Assembly (NCBI RefSeq): GCF_900143055.1
Contig: NZ_FRCW01000001.1
Span: 310,001 to 374,000 of the forward strand
Origin: Fibrobacter sp. UWR3
Lineage (GTDB): Bacteria; Fibrobacterota; Fibrobacteria; Fibrobacterales; Fibrobacteraceae
Length of the DNA: 64,000 nt
Direction of reading: 5' to 3'
The notes under the pieces were generated by a model, which saw only the letters and a list, made by a program, of their open reading frames with translations, was not told where the DNA came from and ran no database searches. Made by a program: the position numbers and the translations under genes. Shown piece by piece: positions 8,361-16,241 of the stretch. Numbering within the stretch: position 1 is the stretch's first letter; every line of letters starts with the position of its first letter.

Positions 8361-9215
8361 TTATTCCCAGTCGTCCACGAAGTCTTCTGCAGGCGGGGCA
8401 GGGGGTGCCGCAGGTGCAGGAGCGGGTGCGGGTGCAGGTTCCTGTGCCGGAGCGGGTGCTGGTTCCGGAGCAGGCGCAGGTTCCGGTGCGGGAGCGGGTG
8501 CCGGTTCAGGCTCGGGAGCAGGAGCAGGTGCCGGTTCCGGTGCAGGCGCGGGTTCAGGTTCCGGAGCAGGAGCAGGCGCGGGTGCCGGTTCGGGTTCAGG
8601 GGCCGGGGCCGGTTCGGGCTGGTTGTCCTGCGGAGGAGCGTAGTACGAACTGGATTCGCCGCTGTTGTCGGAATCTCCGGCCGGGTTGCCGACCTCGTCG
8701 TTTCTGCTGTTGTCAACCCACCACTGGAAGTTCAGTGCGCTAAGCACCTGCTTGCCGTATTCCTGGGCATTCGCGAAGGTCGCGAAGTAGCCGATACGCA
8801 CGCGGTAGTAGGTACCCTCGAGTTCGCCCGGGTTTTCCACCTCGGCGACGTAGGCCTCGATTTTCTGTTCTGCAAGTTTCTTCACGATGGCGTCGGCACC
8901 CTTCTTAGAGGGCTGGATGCTCACCTGGATAACAAACTGGCCATCTTCCTGGGGCTGGATGTTGCCGGTGACTGCCGGGGCTTCCTTGGCGGGTTCGGCC
9001 TTCTCGTCCTTCTGGGCGTTGCCCTGGGAAAGGGACTGGATGGGCACGAGTTCCGGTTCATCGGCGGGTGCCGGAGCCGCTTCGGTCTTGGTGACCGCGG
9101 GTGCCGGTTCCTTTTTCTGCATGTCGGGGACTATTTCCTCTTTTTCGCCACATCCGCAAAGGAGGGCGCCTGCGAGGGATACGACGCATAAGCTAGACGA
9201 CCATGTCTTTTTCAT
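8361..9215 (-). CDS. SPOR-domain lipoprotein with long Pro-Ala-Glu tail
   Basis: This protein (284 residues) starts at the ATG at 9215, six bases after a GGAG ribosome binding site (9223-9226); the longer open frame to 9611 would run through the promoter. A lipobox ends at Cys22 (LLCGC). A Pro/Ala/Glu linker leads to a SPOR domain (about residues 85-165: QFVIQVSIQPSKKGADAIV, then TYYRVRIGYFATFANAQEYG). SPOR domains bind glycan strands stripped of peptides, usually at division sites. The last 75 or so residues are almost only Pro, Ala and Glu (PAPAPEPEP-type), ending EDFVDDWE; such tails can span the periplasm or reach through peptidoglycan. The function in wall remodelling or division is inferred from the SPOR domain. 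Confidence 0.85.
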   Translation of the reverse strand: MKKTWSSSLCVVSLAGALLCGCGEKEEIVPDMQKKEPAPAVTKTEAAPAPADEPELVPIQSLSQGNAQKDEKAEPAKEAPAVTGNIQPQEDGQFVIQVSIQPSKKGADAIVKKLAEQKIEAYVAEVENPGELEGTYYRVRIGYFATFANAQEYGKQVLSALNFQWWVDNSRNDEVGNPAGDSDNSGESSSYYAPPQDNQPEPAPAPEPEPAPAPAPAPEPEPAPAPEPAPAPAPEPEPAPAPAPEPAPAPEPAPAPAQEPAPAPAPAPAAPPAPPAEDFVDDWE

Positions 9216-10204: not shown

Positions 10205-10380
10205 CTATTGTAGGTAAAGAAACCGTCATCCTGAGCTATACGAAACTAAGAACTTTAGTTCTAAAGTTGAGTTATCCTCTTTGTGGAGGAGAGGCGTGGC
10301 CTCGAAGTCGATATACGAAACTTGGCTACTTGTAGCCTTAGTTGAGTTAGGTTCGTAGGAGCAGGATCTAGTCCCTCGTT
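10205..10380. repeat. Degenerate dispersed-repeat region after yqeY
   Basis: This gap has no gene. It holds CGTCATCCTGAG near 10225 and AGGAGCAGGATCTAGTCCC near 10355, with two copies of TATACGAAACT between them (near 10237 and 10312). It looks like a decayed member of the GTCATCCTGAGC...GGATCTAG type of interspersed repeat. A related end (GGTTCGAAGGAGCAGGATT) lies at 12493-12511. Confidence 0.5.
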
Positions 10381-10409
10381 GTCATGCCCGGCCCGACCGG
10401 CAATTTTTC

Positions 10410-10434
10410 ATCCCCGCGCAGGCGGGGATTTTTT
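10410..10434. terminator. Palindromic terminator between yqeY and the YhcG-type gene
   Basis: ATCCCCGC (10410-10417) and GCGGGGAT (10422-10429) enclose a four-base loop and are followed by TTTTT. It lies between convergent genes. The same stem occurs inside birA at 45715-45734. Confidence 0.75.
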
Positions 10435-10444
10435 GTTAATTCTT

Positions 10445-11629
10445 TTACCCCTTTTTCCCGCTGATTTCGTTCTTGAGCCACTTGGTCAATTCGTCTTCGG
10501 CAGGCAGTTTCAATTTGTATTTCTGCACGAAAAGCGATTCTTCGATTCCCGTAGTCGTATATTCCACCAGTTCCTTGCCTGCCTTGGTGCACATCAAAAT
10601 GCCTACAGGCGGATTGTCGCCCTTTTCCATCACGTTTTTCCTGTAGTATGCAAGGTACAGGTTCATCTGTGCAATGTCGTCGTACTTGATTTTGTTAGCC
10701 TTGAGGTCGATCAATACGTGGCACTTGAGAATCCTGTGGTAAAAGACCAAATCGCAGAAGAAGTAGTCGTCATCGACAAGGATTCGCTTTTGCCGGGTTT
10801 CGAAACAAAACCCGTTGCCGAGTTCCAGCAAGAATTCTTCAAGGTGGTTCATCAGTGCGTCTTCCAGGTCGGATTCTTCGACAACGTCCTTGTTCTTGAG
10901 CCCGATGAATTCATAGACGTACGGGCTCTTCACGACATCTTGGAGTTTCAGCGGATGGCCTGATTGCGCAATGCGGGACTGGACGATTGCACTCATCTTT
11001 GCAGGGTCCTTGCTCAGGGCCGTGCGTTCGAAGTAGTTCGAGTCAATTTGGCGTTTGAGTTCGCGGAAAGACCAAACGCCTTTCATAGATTCCAGTTCGT
11101 AAAAGACCCTGCCCAACGGATTTTCGACGCCCATAATGAGCAAGAAGTGCGAATACGAGAGATGATTAAAGAGTTTTTCAGGCGGAATTTCAAGTTTTTC
11201 AGATTGGGCAAACGGTGTTTGCCTAATTTGGCAATCACTGCTTGCCAAATCTGATTCCGACGGTGGCAAAACGTCCAATTTTGCCCCTAAATCAGCCGTC
11301 AATGGCCTGGTTGCCCCGAATTCGGTGGCTGTAAATTCAAGAACGGGGCGAGCCAAACACTTGAATTCCGAGTAGAATTGACGGTAAAGTTTCAGGTTCC
11401 TGTAAGAAAGTGACTTCTTGTTCAGGCGCTCCGCCAGCCTCTGGAGCGTCTTCTCTCCGTATTTGGCCCTGTCGTTGCCGTTCTGCTCGTAATGCACAAT
11501 GTAGTAGCCGGTAAGCCAGTTGCGTGCGGTTACATTCTTGTTGATTGCCTTGGCGGTGTTTTCTTCGAAAGCCTCGTCAATTTGCGCAATAGCATTGCAG
11601 AGACCGTTAAAATCGATGTTGCTTGCCAT
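10445..11629 (-). CDS. YhcG-type PD-(D/E)XK nuclease (DUF1016 family)
   Basis: This 394-residue protein starts at the ATG at 11629, six bases after an AGGAG ribosome binding site; a longer frame to 11839 lacks one. The N-terminal half is the DUF1016 helical domain (ARNWLTGYYIVHYEQNG, AKYGEKTLQRLAERL, NLKLYRQFY). The C-terminal 160 residues are the nuclease-like part: a Leu-rich entry (LEDALMNHLEEFLLELG), then FFCDLVFYHRILKC and VLIDLKANK, giving the D...(D/E)XK core with Asp in the middle position, and a late PPVGILMC strand. YhcG-like proteins are patchily distributed, often near restriction or mobile genes, and their substrate is uncertain. The central third (about residues 110-150) is variable. 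No methylase or specificity gene is next to it. Confidence 0.88.
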   Translation of the reverse strand: MASNIDFNGLCNAIAQIDEAFEENTAKAINKNVTARNWLTGYYIVHYEQNGNDRAKYGEKTLQRLAERLNKKSLSYRNLKLYRQFYSEFKCLARPVLEFTATEFGATRPLTADLGAKLDVLPPSESDLASSDCQIRQTPFAQSEKLEIPPEKLFNHLSYSHFLLIMGVENPLGRVFYELESMKGVWSFRELKRQIDSNYFERTALSKDPAKMSAIVQSRIAQSGHPLKLQDVVKSPYVYEFIGLKNKDVVEESDLEDALMNHLEEFLLELGNGFCFETRQKRILVDDDYFFCDLVFYHRILKCHVLIDLKANKIKYDDIAQMNLYLAYYRKNVMEKGDNPPVGILMCTKAGKELVEYTTTGIEESLFVQKYKLKLPAEDELTKWLKNEISGKKG

Positions 11630-11922
11630 GATGTACTCCTGTGAAAATTTTGTGGCTTGCAAACAGGAGATATGCATGTATAGCGCAGAACACCGGTTCA
11701 CAAACCTGTTGATGACAGATTGGAAATTCCACGGAATGTGGAGGTGCTCTACGTTGATCGCCAGGGGCCGTTCTCCCCATAGGGTTCCTGTCCTCAAATC
11801 GCGGGGCGTGTCGCGCCTGCAAAGGGAGGACGGCGTCAAGCAGATAGTTGAACTACCCGCCCGGAAAGAATGCGCTGTCAGCGGGATTGACTGCTATTAC
11901 TGAATTGAATATATAAAAACGC
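11630..11922. other. Gap with no supported gene
   Basis: About 290 bases between the divergent YhcG-type and PLD-like genes. Open frames here lack ribosome binding sites and resemble no family I know. Near the right end TTGAATATATAAAAA may act as a promoter for the PLD-like gene. Confidence 0.5.
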
Positions 11923-12480
11923 GTGACAAAAAACAAGAGGAAGGTTATCTTTACTCCCGTGCCCACATTCACCAAGTACATCCAGAACGAGGAACATTAC
12001 TCCGAGGTCATTGCGCGGATTGCGAAGGTTCGCGAGACGTTGTGGATCGGTACCGCCGACATCAAGGATGTCTATGTGAAGCAGGATGGCGAATCGATGC
12101 CGCTGCTCGGGCAACTGGCCGCACTCCTGAAGCGTGGCGTTGGCGTGCGGCTCATTCACGCGAAGGAGCCGGGCCCGAACTTCCGCGAGGACTTTGACCG
12201 CTTCAAGATTTTGGCGACCGACCTTGAGCGCGTCATGTGCCCGCGGGTGCATTTCAAGATGATGATTTTCGACTTGGAAACCGCCTACATCGGTTCCGCG
12301 AACTTGACGGGTGCGGGCATCGGCATGAAGAGCAGCTTGCGCCGCAACTTCGAGGCGGGAATCCTCACCAACGACCCCGAACTTGTGCAGCCCGCCATTG
12401 AACAGTTTGACACGATCTGGATGGGCTCGCACTGCAAAAATTGTGGTCGCCAGGAATTCTGCGGCGACCGGATTAAGTAA
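11923..12480 (+). CDS. Single-domain phospholipase D-like protein with C-terminal cysteines
   Basis: This 185-residue protein starts at the GTG at 11923. It has one HKD motif: VHFKMMIFD (His, Lys, Asp spaced HxKx4D) near residue 110, followed by AYIGSANLTGAG. That is the Nuc/PLD pattern in which two chains pair to make one active site. Upstream, TLWIGTADIKD and LLKRGVGVRLIHAKEPG fit the first half of the PLD fold. The C-terminus carries HCKNCGRQEFCGD, a cluster of three cysteines and a histidine that could bind zinc, which is unusual for small PLD proteins. Members act as nucleases or lipid hydrolases; the short length and lack of a signal peptide favour a cytoplasmic nuclease or helper. It sits between two repeat-rich gaps. 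Confidence 0.82.
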   Translation: MTKNKRKVIFTPVPTFTKYIQNEEHYSEVIARIAKVRETLWIGTADIKDVYVKQDGESMPLLGQLAALLKRGVGVRLIHAKEPGPNFREDFDRFKILATDLERVMCPRVHFKMMIFDLETAYIGSANLTGAGIGMKSSLRRNFEAGILTNDPELVQPAIEQFDTIWMGSHCKNCGRQEFCGDRIK

Positions 12481-12492
12481 ATTTTATATGTT

Positions 12493-12520
12493 CGGTTCGA
12501 AGGAGCAGGATTCAGACCCA
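12493..12520. repeat. Copy of an AGGAGCAGGAT-containing dispersed sequence
   Basis: GGTTCGAAGGAGCAGGATTCAGACCC is closely related to GGTTCGTAGGAGCAGGATCTAGTCCC near 10350. On the minus strand it looks like a worn tRNA T-arm and acceptor end, but no cloverleaf can be made. Confidence 0.45.
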
Positions 12521-12535
12521 CATTTTCTTTTCCGG

Positions 12536-12581
12536 TGCCCGTGCTGAATGTAGTAGCACAACTGGGCATTTCTTTTTTTTT
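12536..12581 (+). terminator. Terminator after the PLD-like gene
   Basis: TGCCCGTGCT pairs with AGCAC and GGGCA through a bulged stem (12536-12568), followed by TTTCTTTTTTTTT. Confidence 0.75.
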
Positions 12582-12612
12582 GTCCAAGGATTTTTTATAT
12601 TAATCAGCAACA

Positions 12613-13293
12613 ATGTCTTTCTTGAAATTAAGCTGCTTTTTGATAGTTTTTTGTTGCTTTCTAGTTTCCTGCGGTCATGAGGAAAAGCAATCCTGCATAA
12701 ATTTGTACGAGTTGAAAATCTCCTACAGCAAAAATAATGTTCCGAGAAAATTCAATTTTGTTTATCGGGAAGTCCCTGAATATAGTCAAGGCACTTTAAA
12801 GACAATTTATCCTATTAAAGATGCGATTGATTATGCTGGGAAAGTTCAGTTTATGCAGGATTCTGGTTATCAAGAATTCCTCATATCCTATATAGATCCA
12901 TTCGAAGAGAGAAGAATAGAGGATATGCAAGTGATTGTTGCGGTGGATTCTATTTCAGGAAAGACGGATTCAACGACAGTCGAAAACCTGTGGGGTACCG
13001 GAAGCTTGTTTTCTCGATCCAATATTCTTCATAACAAATGGAAATCAATGCGGTTTCTTACGCCAGTCTTTGTGGAAAGGGATGGAAAGATTGTGGATGC
13101 TGGATATGCCTGTTCTGAATGGGAAAATTTGCGAGAGGTTACAAAGCCCGATTGCAGAAAACCAAAGGGATTGGTTATACAGGGAAGGGTAGAAAAAACA
13201 GGGCTAGAACCACCGTTGCCGGCTGATAGTTTGATGGAGCGACTTAAGGATGACATTGATCGCATTCTTGAATGTAGCGAAGAAGAGTTTTAG
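12613..13293 (+). CDS. AT-rich lipoprotein of unknown function
   Basis: This 226-residue protein has a lipobox ending at Cys20 (FLVSC). I recognise no domain. The mature part has many Tyr, Phe, Ile and Lys residues, blocks such as YPIKDAIDYAGKVQFMQDSG and a conserved-looking TPVFVERDGKIVDAGYACSEWENL, plus three cysteines beyond the lipid-bearing one. Codon choice is markedly more AT-rich (AAA, ATT, TTT, GAA) than in the surrounding genes, where NNC and NNG codons dominate, which suggests recent acquisition. Upstream is TATATTAA nine bases before the ATG with no ribosome binding site. It is the last gene of the accessory stretch before the NifA-like regulator. Confidence 0.65.
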   Translation: MSFLKLSCFLIVFCCFLVSCGHEEKQSCINLYELKISYSKNNVPRKFNFVYREVPEYSQGTLKTIYPIKDAIDYAGKVQFMQDSGYQEFLISYIDPFEERRIEDMQVIVAVDSISGKTDSTTVENLWGTGSLFSRSNILHNKWKSMRFLTPVFVERDGKIVDAGYACSEWENLREVTKPDCRKPKGLVIQGRVEKTGLEPPLPADSLMERLKDDIDRILECSEEEF

Positions 13294-13331
13294 GAGTCGA
13301 TGAGTTAAATTTTCTTGTTCGCTATTTTGTG

Positions 13332-13343: not shown

Positions 13344-14873
13344 ATGTCCACCTCGCAATCCAAAATCCAGGAACTGGAACTGCTCTACAAGATCAGTTCC
13401 ATTCTGAACCAGACGCTCGATTTCGAGAGTGTTGCACATCCGATTCTGGAAGTGGTGGAATCAATGATGGGCGTGGAACATGCGACGCTTACGCTTTACA
13501 ACCGCCACACCGGCGAAATATCCATCGAAATTGCGGAAGGCTTGAGCAGCCGCCAGGCGCGCAAGGGCCGCTACAAGGTGGGCGAGGGCATTACCGGCCG
13601 CGTGGTGGAAACGGGCAAGCCGATTATCATTCCCTCGGTTGCGAAGGATCCGGACTTTCTGGACCGTACGGGCCGCGGCAAGACGGAGGACAAGGCGTTC
13701 CTCTGCGTGCCCGTGATTATGGAGCACCAGGTGATTGGCGCCTTCAGTGCCGACGTGCAGAATCCGGTAGAAGATGAACTTCCCGAGAAACTCCGCCTGC
13801 TGGAAATCATCGCGCAGATGCTTGCGGCGGCAGTGAAGCTCCGTCGCGAAGCTCGAGAGGAAAATGAACTCCTGAAGGCCGAAAACGAACGCTTGACCTT
13901 GGAACTCAAGGACCGTTTCCAGCCCGACAACATCATCGGGCGTTCGAGCGAGATGCAGCGCGTGTATGCGCAGATTGACCAGGTTTCAAAGAGCCCCCTA
14001 CCCGCGCTCATCGTGGGCGAGGTGGGTACGGGCAAGGGGCTCGTGGCTGAGGCTATCCATTACCGTTCCGACCGCAACATGGGCCCGTTCGTCCGCGTCC
14101 ATTGCGCCTCCATGCCGGAATCAGTACTTGACCGCGAACTGTTCGGCAGCGTGCGTGGTGCCCTCGTGGGTGTGTTTGCGGAAACCCCTGGCCGCGTAGA
14201 ACAGGCCGAAGGTGGCACGCTGTTCCTGGACGAAGTGGGCGAACTTTCTCCGAACCTTCAGGTGAAACTCCTGCGTCTGTTGCAGAACGGCGAGGTGGAA
14301 CGTATTGGCGCCCGCATTCCCAAGAAGGTGAACGTGCGCGTGATTGCGGCCACCACCAAGAACCTGCAGCAGATGGTCGAAGAAGGAACCTTCCGTGAAG
14401 ACCTCTATTACCAGCTGCACATTTTCCCGATTTACGTGCCGCCGCTCAGGAACCGCAAGACAGACATCGTGCTCCTGGCGGACCACTTTGTGGAACATTA
14501 CTGCCGCATCGTGGGCAAGAACGTGCGCCGCCTTGCCCGCACCACCATCAACATGCTCATGAGTTACCCGTGGCCCGGAAACGTGCGCGAACTTGAAAAT
14601 GGAATCGAGCGTGCCGTTCTCGTTGCCGACGAAGACGTCATCTACCCGCACCATTTCCCGACCACGCTGCAGACCGCCGAAACGAGCGGCACTCCCGTGA
14701 ACGGAAACCTGAAACTCATGGTGGAGGCCTACGAGAAGGACATCATCTGCGATGCCCTCAAGAGTAGCAAGGGAAAAGTCGCCGCTGCTGCGCGCAGTCT
14801 TTCCACGACTCCGCGTATTTTAACGTATAAAATCAACCAACTTGGCATAGACCTCGCCAGTTTCGGTAAATAA
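13344..14873 (+). CDS. NifA/NtrC-like GAF-AAA+ regulator with altered GAFTGA motif
   Basis: The 509-residue protein has a GAF sensor domain (about residues 15-165), a short coiled coil, an AAA+ domain of the sigma-54 activator family (about 195-425) and a Fis-type helix-turn-helix (about 470-505: KVAAAARSLSTTPRILTYKI). Walker A is GEVGTGKGLVAEAIH and Walker B is GGTLFLDEVGEL, both intact. The loop that normally reads GAFTGA, which contacts sigma-54, reads GALVGV here (in LFGSVRGALVGVFAETPG). In known activators changes in this loop usually abolish sigma-54 activation, so the protein may act without sigma-54 or as a repressor. No histidine kinase or receiver domain is nearby; the GAF domain is the likely input. 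It stands alone between the accessory stretch and tyrS. Confidence 0.88.
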   Translation: MSTSQSKIQELELLYKISSILNQTLDFESVAHPILEVVESMMGVEHATLTLYNRHTGEISIEIAEGLSSRQARKGRYKVGEGITGRVVETGKPIIIPSVAKDPDFLDRTGRGKTEDKAFLCVPVIMEHQVIGAFSADVQNPVEDELPEKLRLLEIIAQMLAAAVKLRREAREENELLKAENERLTLELKDRFQPDNIIGRSSEMQRVYAQIDQVSKSPLPALIVGEVGTGKGLVAEAIHYRSDRNMGPFVRVHCASMPESVLDRELFGSVRGALVGVFAETPGRVEQAEGGTLFLDEVGELSPNLQVKLLRLLQNGEVERIGARIPKKVNVRVIAATTKNLQQMVEEGTFREDLYYQLHIFPIYVPPLRNRKTDIVLLADHFVEHYCRIVGKNVRRLARTTINMLMSYPWPGNVRELENGIERAVLVADEDVIYPHHFPTTLQTAETSGTPVNGNLKLMVEAYEKDIICDALKSSKGKVAAAARSLSTTPRILTYKINQLGIDLASFGK

Positions 14874-15023
14874 ACTGACTGCAGTCAACTCTCGATAGCC
14901 GACTAATTCTATATTTATCCCGTATGATTATCCATTCCTTCTACATGGGCTTTCAGTGATTAGTGGTTTAGACTTGTAATTTCCCTAACCAATAATCATT
15001 AACCATTAACTATTGAGAAAATT

Positions 15024-16241
15024 ATGCAATTCCGTCCCGTTAAGGAACAGCTTGATATTTTGATGCGCGGCGTTATCGATGTCGTGCCGCAAGAAGAACT
15101 CGAAAAGAAACTCCAGAAGTCCTACGATACCGGAGTCCCGCTCCGTATCAAGATGGGCGTGGACCCGACGGCCCCGGACGTGCACTTCGGCCACACGGTC
15201 GTGATGCGCAAGCTCCGTCAGTTCCAGGACCTGGGCCATACCGTCGTGCTCATTGTGGGTGACTACACCGCCCAGATTGGTGACCCCAGCGGCCGCAACA
15301 AGGCCCGCCCGCGTCTCACGCACGAACAGGTGCTCGAGAACGCGAAGGAATACCAGGAACAGTTCTTCAAGGTCGTCCGCCGCGACCAGGTGGAAATCCA
15401 CTACAACGGCGAATGGTTCTCCAAGCTCCCGTTCAGCAAGGTGACCGAACTCATGGGCCAGTTCACCGTGGCCCAGATGCTCGAACGCGAGGATTTCCAC
15501 AACCGCTACACGGCCAATACGCCGATTAGCCTGCACGAGTTCATGTACCCGATGATGCAGGGCTACGATTCCGTGGCCATCAAGAGTGACGTGGAATTGG
15601 GCGGCACCGACCAGAAGTTCAACGTGCTTCGCGGTCGTGACTTGCAGATTTTCGAAGGCATGGAACCGCAGATTGGTCTCTTCATGCCGATTTTGCTCGG
15701 TACCGACGGCAAGGTCAAGATGAGTAAGTCCATCGGCAACTACGTGGGCCTGAACGAGCCCGCCGACGTGATGTACCACAAGATTTACAGCCTCGCCGAC
15801 AGCATCGTCGAGAACTGGTTCGAACTCCTCACCAACATCCCGCTTGCAGAAATCAAGCAGATGATGGCCGATATCGCTGCGGGCAAGATGAACCCCAACG
15901 ATGCGAAGCACCGCCTCGCCATCGATATCGTGACGCAGTACTACGGCGCAGAAGCCGCCGAGGCCGCCGCCGCGAAGGAACGCGAAATCCACAGCGGAAA
16001 CGCCATCCCGAGCGATGCTGCCGAATGCAGCGTGGCGGCCGGCACCTATGGTGCCCTGGATCTGCTTGTGGAAATCAAGGCCTTTGCATCTAAGGGCGAA
16101 GCCCGCCGCATGATTCAGAACGGCGGCGTCAAGATTGCGGGCGAAAAGCTCGCTGACCCGCAGGCCTCGTTTGAAATCAAGGGCGGTGACCAGCTGGTTG
16201 TCCAGGTGGGCAAACGCAAGTTCTACAAGGTGAATTTCTAG
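15024..16241 (+). CDS. tyrS: Tyrosyl-tRNA synthetase
   Basis: This 405-residue class I synthetase charges tRNA-Tyr. The first signature is HFGH (near residue 55, in MGVDPTAPDVHFGHTVV) and the second is KMSKS (near residue 235, in GKVKMSKSIGN). VGDYTAQIGDPSGRNKARP and the C-terminal S4 RNA-binding domain (SKGEARRMIQNGGVKIAGEK) match the TyrZ/TyrS2 subgroup rather than the other bacterial TyrRS type. The start is the ATG at 15024 after TTGAGAAAATT. The 150-base leader holds degenerate AACCATTAACTATT-type repeats and a TATATTTA box near 14910; I see no T-box structure. A PfkB kinase gene follows four bases after the stop, so the two are probably co-transcribed. Confidence 0.95.
   Translation: MQFRPVKEQLDILMRGVIDVVPQEELEKKLQKSYDTGVPLRIKMGVDPTAPDVHFGHTVVMRKLRQFQDLGHTVVLIVGDYTAQIGDPSGRNKARPRLTHEQVLENAKEYQEQFFKVVRRDQVEIHYNGEWFSKLPFSKVTELMGQFTVAQMLEREDFHNRYTANTPISLHEFMYPMMQGYDSVAIKSDVELGGTDQKFNVLRGRDLQIFEGMEPQIGLFMPILLGTDGKVKMSKSIGNYVGLNEPADVMYHKIYSLADSIVENWFELLTNIPLAEIKQMMADIAAGKMNPNDAKHRLAIDIVTQYYGAEAAEAAAAKEREIHSGNAIPSDAAECSVAAGTYGALDLLVEIKAFASKGEARRMIQNGGVKIAGEKLADPQASFEIKGGDQLVVQVGKRKFYKVNF

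Follow-up and report, generated by a model that had tools for sequence, protein, structure and literature searches.

The spread of very small, gene-less repeats in bacteria is an open question. The closest kinds to the repeat described here are the small dispersed repeats (SDRs) of cyanobacteria, the double-hairpin elements of mitochondria, and the REPINs, which are hairpin-forming doublets of repetitive extragenic palindromes (REPs). The SDR elements of Nostoc are reportedly very small, dispersed sequences of 21-27 nt, and they are said to show compensatory changes in a common structure and to lie inside other repeats, without a known enzyme. Mitochondrial genomes of fungi and other organisms contain double-hairpin elements, which consist of two adjacent hairpins and are suspected of mobility. 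Here, a stretch of 64,000 nucleotides from Fibrobacter sp. UWR3 (contig NZ_FRCW01000001.1, positions 310,001 to 374,000; the whole stretch is called the window) was found to carry a 51-bp repeat made of two hairpins, next to the gene yqeY. With a probability of roughly 0.6, we consider this repeat to be a mobile element that is non-autonomous, is built as a double hairpin, and inserts into palindromes without a scar and with fixed polarity, probably via a single-stranded intermediate, beside a gene hotspot that is filled separately. A literature search, with subscription journals mostly outside its coverage, returned no earlier description of the element.

Compensatory changes and nesting in other repeats are both features that the element shares with the Nostoc SDRs as they are reported. 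It differs from them in its length and build (51 nt and two hairpins, 39 plus 13 in one F. intestinalis form), in its occurrence in one family of the window's phylum, and in its location in REP palindromes. Two adjacent hairpins form one dispersed unit, as in the mitochondrial double-hairpin elements, and an organelle origin does not apply. Passages of PMC2800124 describe hairpin elements of sponge mitochondria whose loops vary while their stems are conserved; compared with those passages, the 51-bp element is the reverse. The palindromes that hold the element fit most of the features given for CGTC-tagged REPs in passages of PMC3733652: a CGTC or TGTC tag, stems of 8-9 bp starting with AT, and short loops of 4-5 bases. 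An unpaired CCA tail also belongs to the description of CGTC REPs; judged by eye, most of the host palindromes seen finish with ATCT or ATCC. The element is a guest inside these CGTC-REP-like palindromes. According to the same source, no transposase is apparently dedicated to CGTC-tagged REPs, and REPs can be found inserted in other palindromes; there are 0 mentions of Fibrobacter in its main text.

Like the REPINs in passages of PMC3116915, the element is short, hairpin-forming, and non-autonomous, and it shows compensatory changes. An assignment as a REPIN was rejected: the 51-mer is not a pair of inverted REPs, it is identical in different REPs, and the window's genome (G000) has no match to the transposase family Y1_Tnp. 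Integron attC sites carry the core boxes RYYYAAC and GTTRRRY. By eye, most copies of the element read GTTATCC there, and this candidate was dropped for the motif misfit, no integrase search having been made. Minielements of the IS200/IS605 type (HUH) rely on a Y1 transposase and one fixed short left target sequence. This class was also set aside, given the lack of Y1_Tnp in G000 and the differing left flanks of the copies (CCGC, CTCGC, GAGC, TCGA, CGCC, and CTTT).

The window contains two whole copies of the element after yqeY, A (10237-10287) and B (10312-10362), and one remnant (12494-12506), as seen in Table 1. An earlier note, made from the sequence alone, had pointed to two related repeat ends, AGGAGCAGGAT, and exact occurrences of this motif in the window were indeed limited to 10357-10367 and 12501-12511. 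Allowing one mismatch raised the number of matches in the window to five, compared to a shuffle mean of 0.79, which is more than chance would give. The motif is the right end of the structured 51-bp repeat joined to the 3' arm of an intergenic palindrome, the host REP.

Relatives showed the same REP in several states of occupancy. After yqeY it was empty in G042 and G065, it held copy A alone in G063, and it held A and B in G000 and G037, with each step being exactly 51 bp. In the alignment with G063, exactly the 51 bp of copy B were missing, between GTCGA and AGGATCTAG of the REP. The stem of copy B in G037 differs from that in G000 at the same place. At a second site, for which eight loci were compared, the element was present in G000 and G063, a plain REP was found in G070, and the REP held a sister repeat in G003; the other four loci had no such REP at that place. 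States with and without the element differ by exactly 51 bp, and no target is duplicated. The element lies in a single polarity inside small palindromes of other kinds, for the most part REPs (GTCATCCCCGC + element + GAAGGCGGGGATCT).

In each unit, a 13-nt hairpin follows a 38-nt hairpin whose stem varies in sequence yet stays complementary. The main form is 51 nt long, and one of 57 copies (L081) measures 52 nt. The 38-nt hairpin follows the pattern TATAC-GA-NACT-N-stem-TT-stem'-NN-AGTN-GA-GTTA. A covariance model was built from 14 copies of G000, and 29 distinct rows were aligned by fitting to it. Over 18 pairs in these rows, 99.0% of 522 cells were paired compared to a shuffled mean of 83.5%, both sides had changed in 11 pairs compared to 5.9, and the covariation score was 0.385 compared to 0.091. 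The alignment of the 14 rows, which was not fitted to the model, gave 98.1% of cells paired and a covariation score of 0.472 compared to 0.140. In the 29 rows, the 38-nt hairpin had no G-T pair and no one-sided change in 377 cells, and the 13-nt hairpin had 13 cells with one-sided changes, at one pair, and five unpaired cells. A larger set of 35 distinct elements (32 model hits and three found by a relaxed pattern) was scored with the innermost apical pair counted too. The 38-nt hairpin then showed five G-T and six unpaired cells of 490, partly from two out-of-register copies, and the 13-nt hairpin showed 14 G-T and 12 unpaired cells of 175. The internal GA/GA loop was retained in 31 of the 35 elements, among which there were 15 different apical 14-mers. 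The strict Watson-Crick pairing of the long hairpin would be explained less well by a constraint on RNA alone than by one acting on DNA or by repair that uses the other arm as its template.

The element was found in 76 of 80 genomes of the genus at an E value of 0.01, with no match in G014, G050, G056, and G068. G000 has 27 copies, the training copies among them, and the largest number in a genus genome was 39 (G018). In a search of the phylum at an E value of 0.001, the element occurred in 84 of 167 genomes and in three of 40 genera, all of one family, with the highest count in G139 (48) and 17 copies in G144. These counts are lower bounds because the filters were strict and only part of the first-look candidates was scored (74 and 35 per genome). 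When the 226-bp leader that contains both copies (10215-10440) was compared by BLAST with its own genome, and 40 of 105 first-look candidates were scored, 40 matches resulted, one of them the leader itself; some of the 40 covered no more than the terminator-like palindrome at the leader's end. The element is mostly intergenic, since 15 of 55 copies (the 57 minus the window's two) fell inside crudely chosen open reading frames (ORFs) compared to 2192 of 2750 random places. No match to a 156-bp leader sequence was found on phages or plasmids at an E value of 1e-5, and the element pattern, which is narrow, had none in viral contigs.

The flanks were classified for the 57 copies, which are model hits in 49 and 81 chosen sources and not a random sample. 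A GTCA-type arm lay directly left of 27 copies, six copies stood at the TCGA/AGGAT junction in the 3' arm of the REP, eight in a GACGCC/GGCGTC-like palindrome, and four in the TT loop of a second repeat. The sequence GTCA(T/C) was present within 16 bases to the left of 26 copies, and (A/G)TGAC within 26 bases to the right of none. A directly flanking palindrome with a score of at least 7 was found for 22 of the 57, compared to 19 of 2000 random places. One identical 51-mer occurred 23 times, in 12 of the 167 genomes and in two genera, inside unlike palindromes. Seven of these occurrences were in the TT loop of the second repeat, which is another palindrome, 15 followed a GTCAT/GACAT arm, and one was elsewhere. 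The bases next after the arm at the 15 places were CCCCGC, CCTCGC, GCTCGC, or TCTCGC. Also, 1.03 Mb of loci, partly chosen for the element, held 97 palindromes that start with GTCA and have perfect 8-bp arms, compared to two in a control with reversed arms. Loops of 4-6 bases were found in 61 of the 97 (17 of them of six bases) and loops of 55, 57, 58, or 59 bases in ten; all of the long-loop palindromes listed hold the 51-mer.

The second dispersed repeat is also 51 bp long (GCGGACAGCACT..hairpin..GGCCACCAAGGTGG) and was seen at L014, L024, L025, L119, L120, L129, L132, and L152. Most of its insertions lie ahead of GGATCT within the 3' arms of REPs, its stems differ in a paired fashion by eye, and the first element nests in its TT loop. 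Its core was found in seven of 13 genomes searched. A longer variant of the first element, with a 39-nt hairpin, was observed in 16 stretches of F. intestinalis ATCC 43854 (L200, L202, L204-L212, and L214-L218) and in three stretches of Fibrobacter metagenome-assembled genomes (L201, L203, and L213). The pattern scanned against named genomes was one base longer than the 51-bp form and thus covered this variant only. In F. intestinalis, two or three units follow each other in tandem within REPs of the form GTCATTGCGA..GAAGCAATCC or their GTCACCCCGA variant, and the composite is repeated at many sites.

From these comparisons we infer mobility, travel as a single strand, and joining into a folded palindrome. 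The exact ends, the lack of target duplication, the one polarity, and the palindromic targets point to the joining of a folded strand into a folded target. The element would travel as a single strand of fixed polarity, either single-stranded DNA or RNA, and would fold into its two hairpins. A palindrome that is itself folded would expose its loop or arm, and an enzyme acting in trans could then join the folded strand in there. The stems may stay complementary because folding is needed for movement or because repair templated by the hairpin corrects them. No match to Y1_Tnp (PF01797) was found in G000, with its 27 copies, or in G018, with its 39, so at present the genome that carries the element does not need a Y1 enzyme of its own; such an enzyme may have had a role elsewhere or earlier. 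An enzyme of the REP-associated tyrosine transposase (RAYT) or IS200 type as a necessity in cis was rejected for its absence from G000. Across the phylum, Y1_Tnp occurred in 79 of the 167 genomes.

Several observations weigh against such a mobile element. The sequence comparisons revealed no new transposition, donor molecule, or enzyme. G139 and G144 have nine and five Y1_Tnp matches, respectively, so a Y1 enzyme could have a role in the family. Folded as bare single-stranded DNA, copies A and B were weak (z -1.1 and -2.9), and a z of -4.8 was obtained with the host REP included. Both copies score low in the flanking-palindrome test, their REP being of the interrupted kind, and the 13-nt half of copy B resembles REP sequence and may be derived from the host. 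A strong palindrome lies directly around only 22 of the 57 copies, and 12 stand in flanks of no class. At least two pairs of the identical 51-mers look orthologous (L220/L230 and L221/L126), meaning that the copies are not all independent insertions. Some copies have moved within larger composites, namely the F. intestinalis tandem units and the GACGCC family, and therefore the mobile unit may sometimes be composite.

A possible explanation that we regard as unlikely is that the element is a loop variant of a REP or REPIN that spreads only together with its REP and is moved by a RAYT. REPINs are REP pairs with a hairpin spacer in which compensatory changes are common, in passages of PMC3116915; the tandem composites of F. 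intestinalis resemble the spread of whole units, and the Y1_Tnp matches of G139 and G144 would supply the enzyme. However, one and the same 51-mer is hosted by REPs whose arms differ and by a palindrome unrelated to them, and the element is missing from REPs at the same place. The copy-rich genomes G000 and G018 have no Y1_Tnp, which is present in G014 and G068, where no element was detected at the cut-off used. The covarying structure and mostly intergenic position, as well as a 13-nt hairpin with G-T pairs but no A-C, as expected for an RNA of that strand, would suit a transcribed cis-acting RNA (a terminator, stability element, or riboregulator) under selection and not mobile. This seems improbable to us, since its presence at the same site differs between relatives and the 38-nt hairpin is nearly free of G-T pairs, even in the larger set. 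Also, tRNAs alone reached Rfam gathering scores in the window, with sub-threshold matches only around the site.

Precise differences of 51 bp are symmetric, and precise excision in relatives of an element that was ancestral in these REPs would look alike. The plain 4- to 6-base loops of most REPs with 8-bp arms and the identical copies in unlike hosts make such loss very improbable. What the earlier note proposed was that the two repeat ends bound a single inserted block of about 2.2 kb, carrying YhcG and a phospholipase D-like (PLD) protein and possibly serving in defence. The two motifs are direct repeats with a spacing of about 2.1 kb, and YhcG belongs to a PADLOC candidate family. This idea has lost nearly all credit: the motif belongs to a dispersed genomic repeat, YhcG and PLD occur apart at the site, five relatives have PLD adjoining nifA without the right repeat, and G037 has the left repeat complex without YhcG.

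The insertion of a mobile double-hairpin element may be part of a wider picture, to which we give somewhat less than an even chance. The 51-bp family, together with one or more sister families of equal length (GCGGACAGCACT..AAGGTGG), would form a hairpin-in-hairpin hierarchy in Fibrobacter and near relatives. To spread, a folded single strand would be inserted, scarlessly and with fixed polarity, into another folded palindrome at its loop or arm, with shape mattering more than sequence, through a new enzyme.

Next, the gene interval between yqeY and nifA, the NifA-like regulator, was compared among relatives. The gene yqeY was present in 73 of the 80 genus genomes, including the window's, and its neighbourhood was taken from all 72 relatives that have it. 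A downstream nifA was found in 69 of the 72; in the stretch taken it was missing from G026, G029, where tyrS is directly next, and G033, where the contig ends. The 69 relatives with a resolved interval and the window make up the denominator of 70 used below. The gap was shorter than 300 bp in 38 of the 69 relatives and measured 700-5361 bp, with differing cargo, in 31. Cargo was typed by listing ORFs, with Pfam on ten representatives and PADLOC on eight. It included acyltransferases, other lipoprotein-like ORFs, PDDEXK_2 genes, a Fib_succ_major/collagen-like protein, a 638-aa protein without a family, a set of 201-253-aa ORFs (the single one scanned had no Pfam family), and a RelB-type pair in G061. 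Because its cargo differs among relatives, the yqeY-nifA gap is an accessory insertion hotspot. A restriction-modification pair, a HincII-type restriction enzyme with an Eco57I-type methylase, was also observed in the interval of G071 (L084:5275-7620). The gap between nifA and tyrS (window 14873-15024) varies from about 0.14 kb to 4.9 kb among relatives and may be a second hotspot.

The three genes that the window carries in this hotspot are patchily distributed, as the earlier note had supposed, and they do not stand there in all of the 69 relatives. YhcG was found at the site in two of the 70 genomes (G000 and, over two frames, G063), PLD in nine, with an internal deletion in G063, and the lipoprotein in one (G000), with relatives of 33-50% identity in eight other genomes. 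PLD was present without YhcG in G009, G021, and G037. In G002, G010, G047, and G051 the slot directly before PLD was filled by another gene family, PDDEXK_2 in the single member scanned, and YhcG relatives at 85-89% in G003, G016, and G046 were on different contigs from yqeY. The PLD match stopped 13 positions short of the nifA start in G047, G051, G009, G037, and G063, with no gene or repeat between, and therefore the lipoprotein entered separately. Given these layouts, PLD, YhcG, and the lipoprotein arrived separately, and there is no single 2.2 kb block. The alignments of relatives also show that the repeats were gained or lost independently of the genes. The 51-bp element does not account for the arrival of the hotspot genes, for which homologous recombination from REP to REP would be the likeliest route.

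At fourfold sites, the likeness of PLD at this site to the window's copy (0.80-0.89) was higher than that of nifA (0.60-0.77) in eight of eight relatives and higher than that of yqeY in seven of the eight, the exception being G063 (0.89 on 27 sites compared to 0.93). The values for tyrS were 0.75-0.80 in the five relatives where it was found, equalling PLD in G009, and seven PLD copies elsewhere gave 0.45-0.59. This hints that PLD may have spread at the site more recently. In G063 (L033), PLD has lost approximately residues 69-152, including the PLD motif, and YhcG is split in two frames, so that both are decaying; another full-length PLD is carried elsewhere in that genome. At L035, L039, L055, and L069, one family (PDDEXK_2 in the member scanned) was seen in YhcG's slot, so that two PD-(D/E)XK families use one slot.

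Table 1. Repeat features and accessory genes between yqeY and nifA (window positions)
Feature	Position	Strand	Remarks
Host REP palindrome, 5' arm, GTCATCCTGAGC	10225..10236	+	Same REP empty after yqeY in G042, G065
51-bp double-hairpin element, copy A (38-nt + 13-nt hairpins)	10237..10287	+	cmsearch 69.5 bits; in model training set
Middle of host REP, between copies A and B	10288..10311	+	
51-bp double-hairpin element, copy B, stem GGCTAC/GTAGCC, right half GGTTCGTAGGAGC	10312..10362	+	cmsearch 72.3 bits; in model training set
Host REP 3' arm, AGGATCTAG	10363..10371	+	
Two more REP-like palindromes; the latter is a GC hairpin with T after it and resembles a terminator	10381..10434	+	By eye
YhcG / DUF1016 PD-(D/E)XK nuclease, 395 aa	10448..11632	minus	Pfam; PADLOC candidate family PDC-S02
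Small PLD-superfamily protein, 185 aa as called	11923..12480	+	Pfam; homology
Remnant: B-type right half GGTTCGAAGGAGC + REP 3' arm AGGATTC; left border of lipoprotein insertion	12494..12513	+	
AT-rich lipoprotein-like gene	12613..13293	+	At the yqeY-nifA site in the window's genome only

YhcG has both domains of its family, YhcG_C with the PDDEXK fold (164.4 bits, cut-off 32.5) and DUF1016_N (86.3 bits, cut-off 32.8). In domain architecture and scores it is like the known YhcG/DUF1016 PDDEXK nucleases and PDC-S02 of PADLOC, and nothing unusual was seen. The window's genome has six YhcG-type matches, which are present in 71 of the 80 genus genomes. The PLD protein matched PLDc_2 with 57.7 bits (cut-off 27) and by eye contains HxK...D...GSxN, which we take to be the PLD motif. 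Its start as called (11923-11973) may be about 12 codons early, as homology in G009, G021, and G037 begins near a GTG at 11959. A PDB search with the PLD sequence gave weak matches only, the best with an E value of 0.0038. As to the link to defence suggested in the earlier note, YhcG matches a PADLOC candidate family. As DISARM DrmC, PLD was rejected at 38.6 bits against the NCBIfam NF038319 cut-off of 133, and four other scanned genes around it were not DISARM genes by Pfam.

The lipoprotein-like ORF matched no Pfam, PADLOC, or NCBIfam family at an E value of 0.01. Its deviating composition, remarked on beforehand, was borne out: its GC is 0.394, compared to 0.55 for the window, and its GC at third codon positions is 0.381, compared to 0.72-0.79 for six other genes (yqeY, PLD, nifA, tyrS, pfkB, and rimO) and 0.625 for YhcG. 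On the minus strand, another lipoprotein (window 8361-9200) has a long Ala-Pro/Glu-Pro repeat tail and is presumably SPOR-like.

The gene interval offers a warning, as short motifs matching at two places were a dispersed repeat and not the ends of an island. If the reading of the 51-bp repeat as a mobile element is true, these hairpin elements would rank with the smallest known to move in bacteria. The ends and the empty sites of the unit are exact, it has a single polarity, its copies in unlike hosts are identical, and the genus has a sequenced culture-collection strain. Therefore, the mover can be sought directly.

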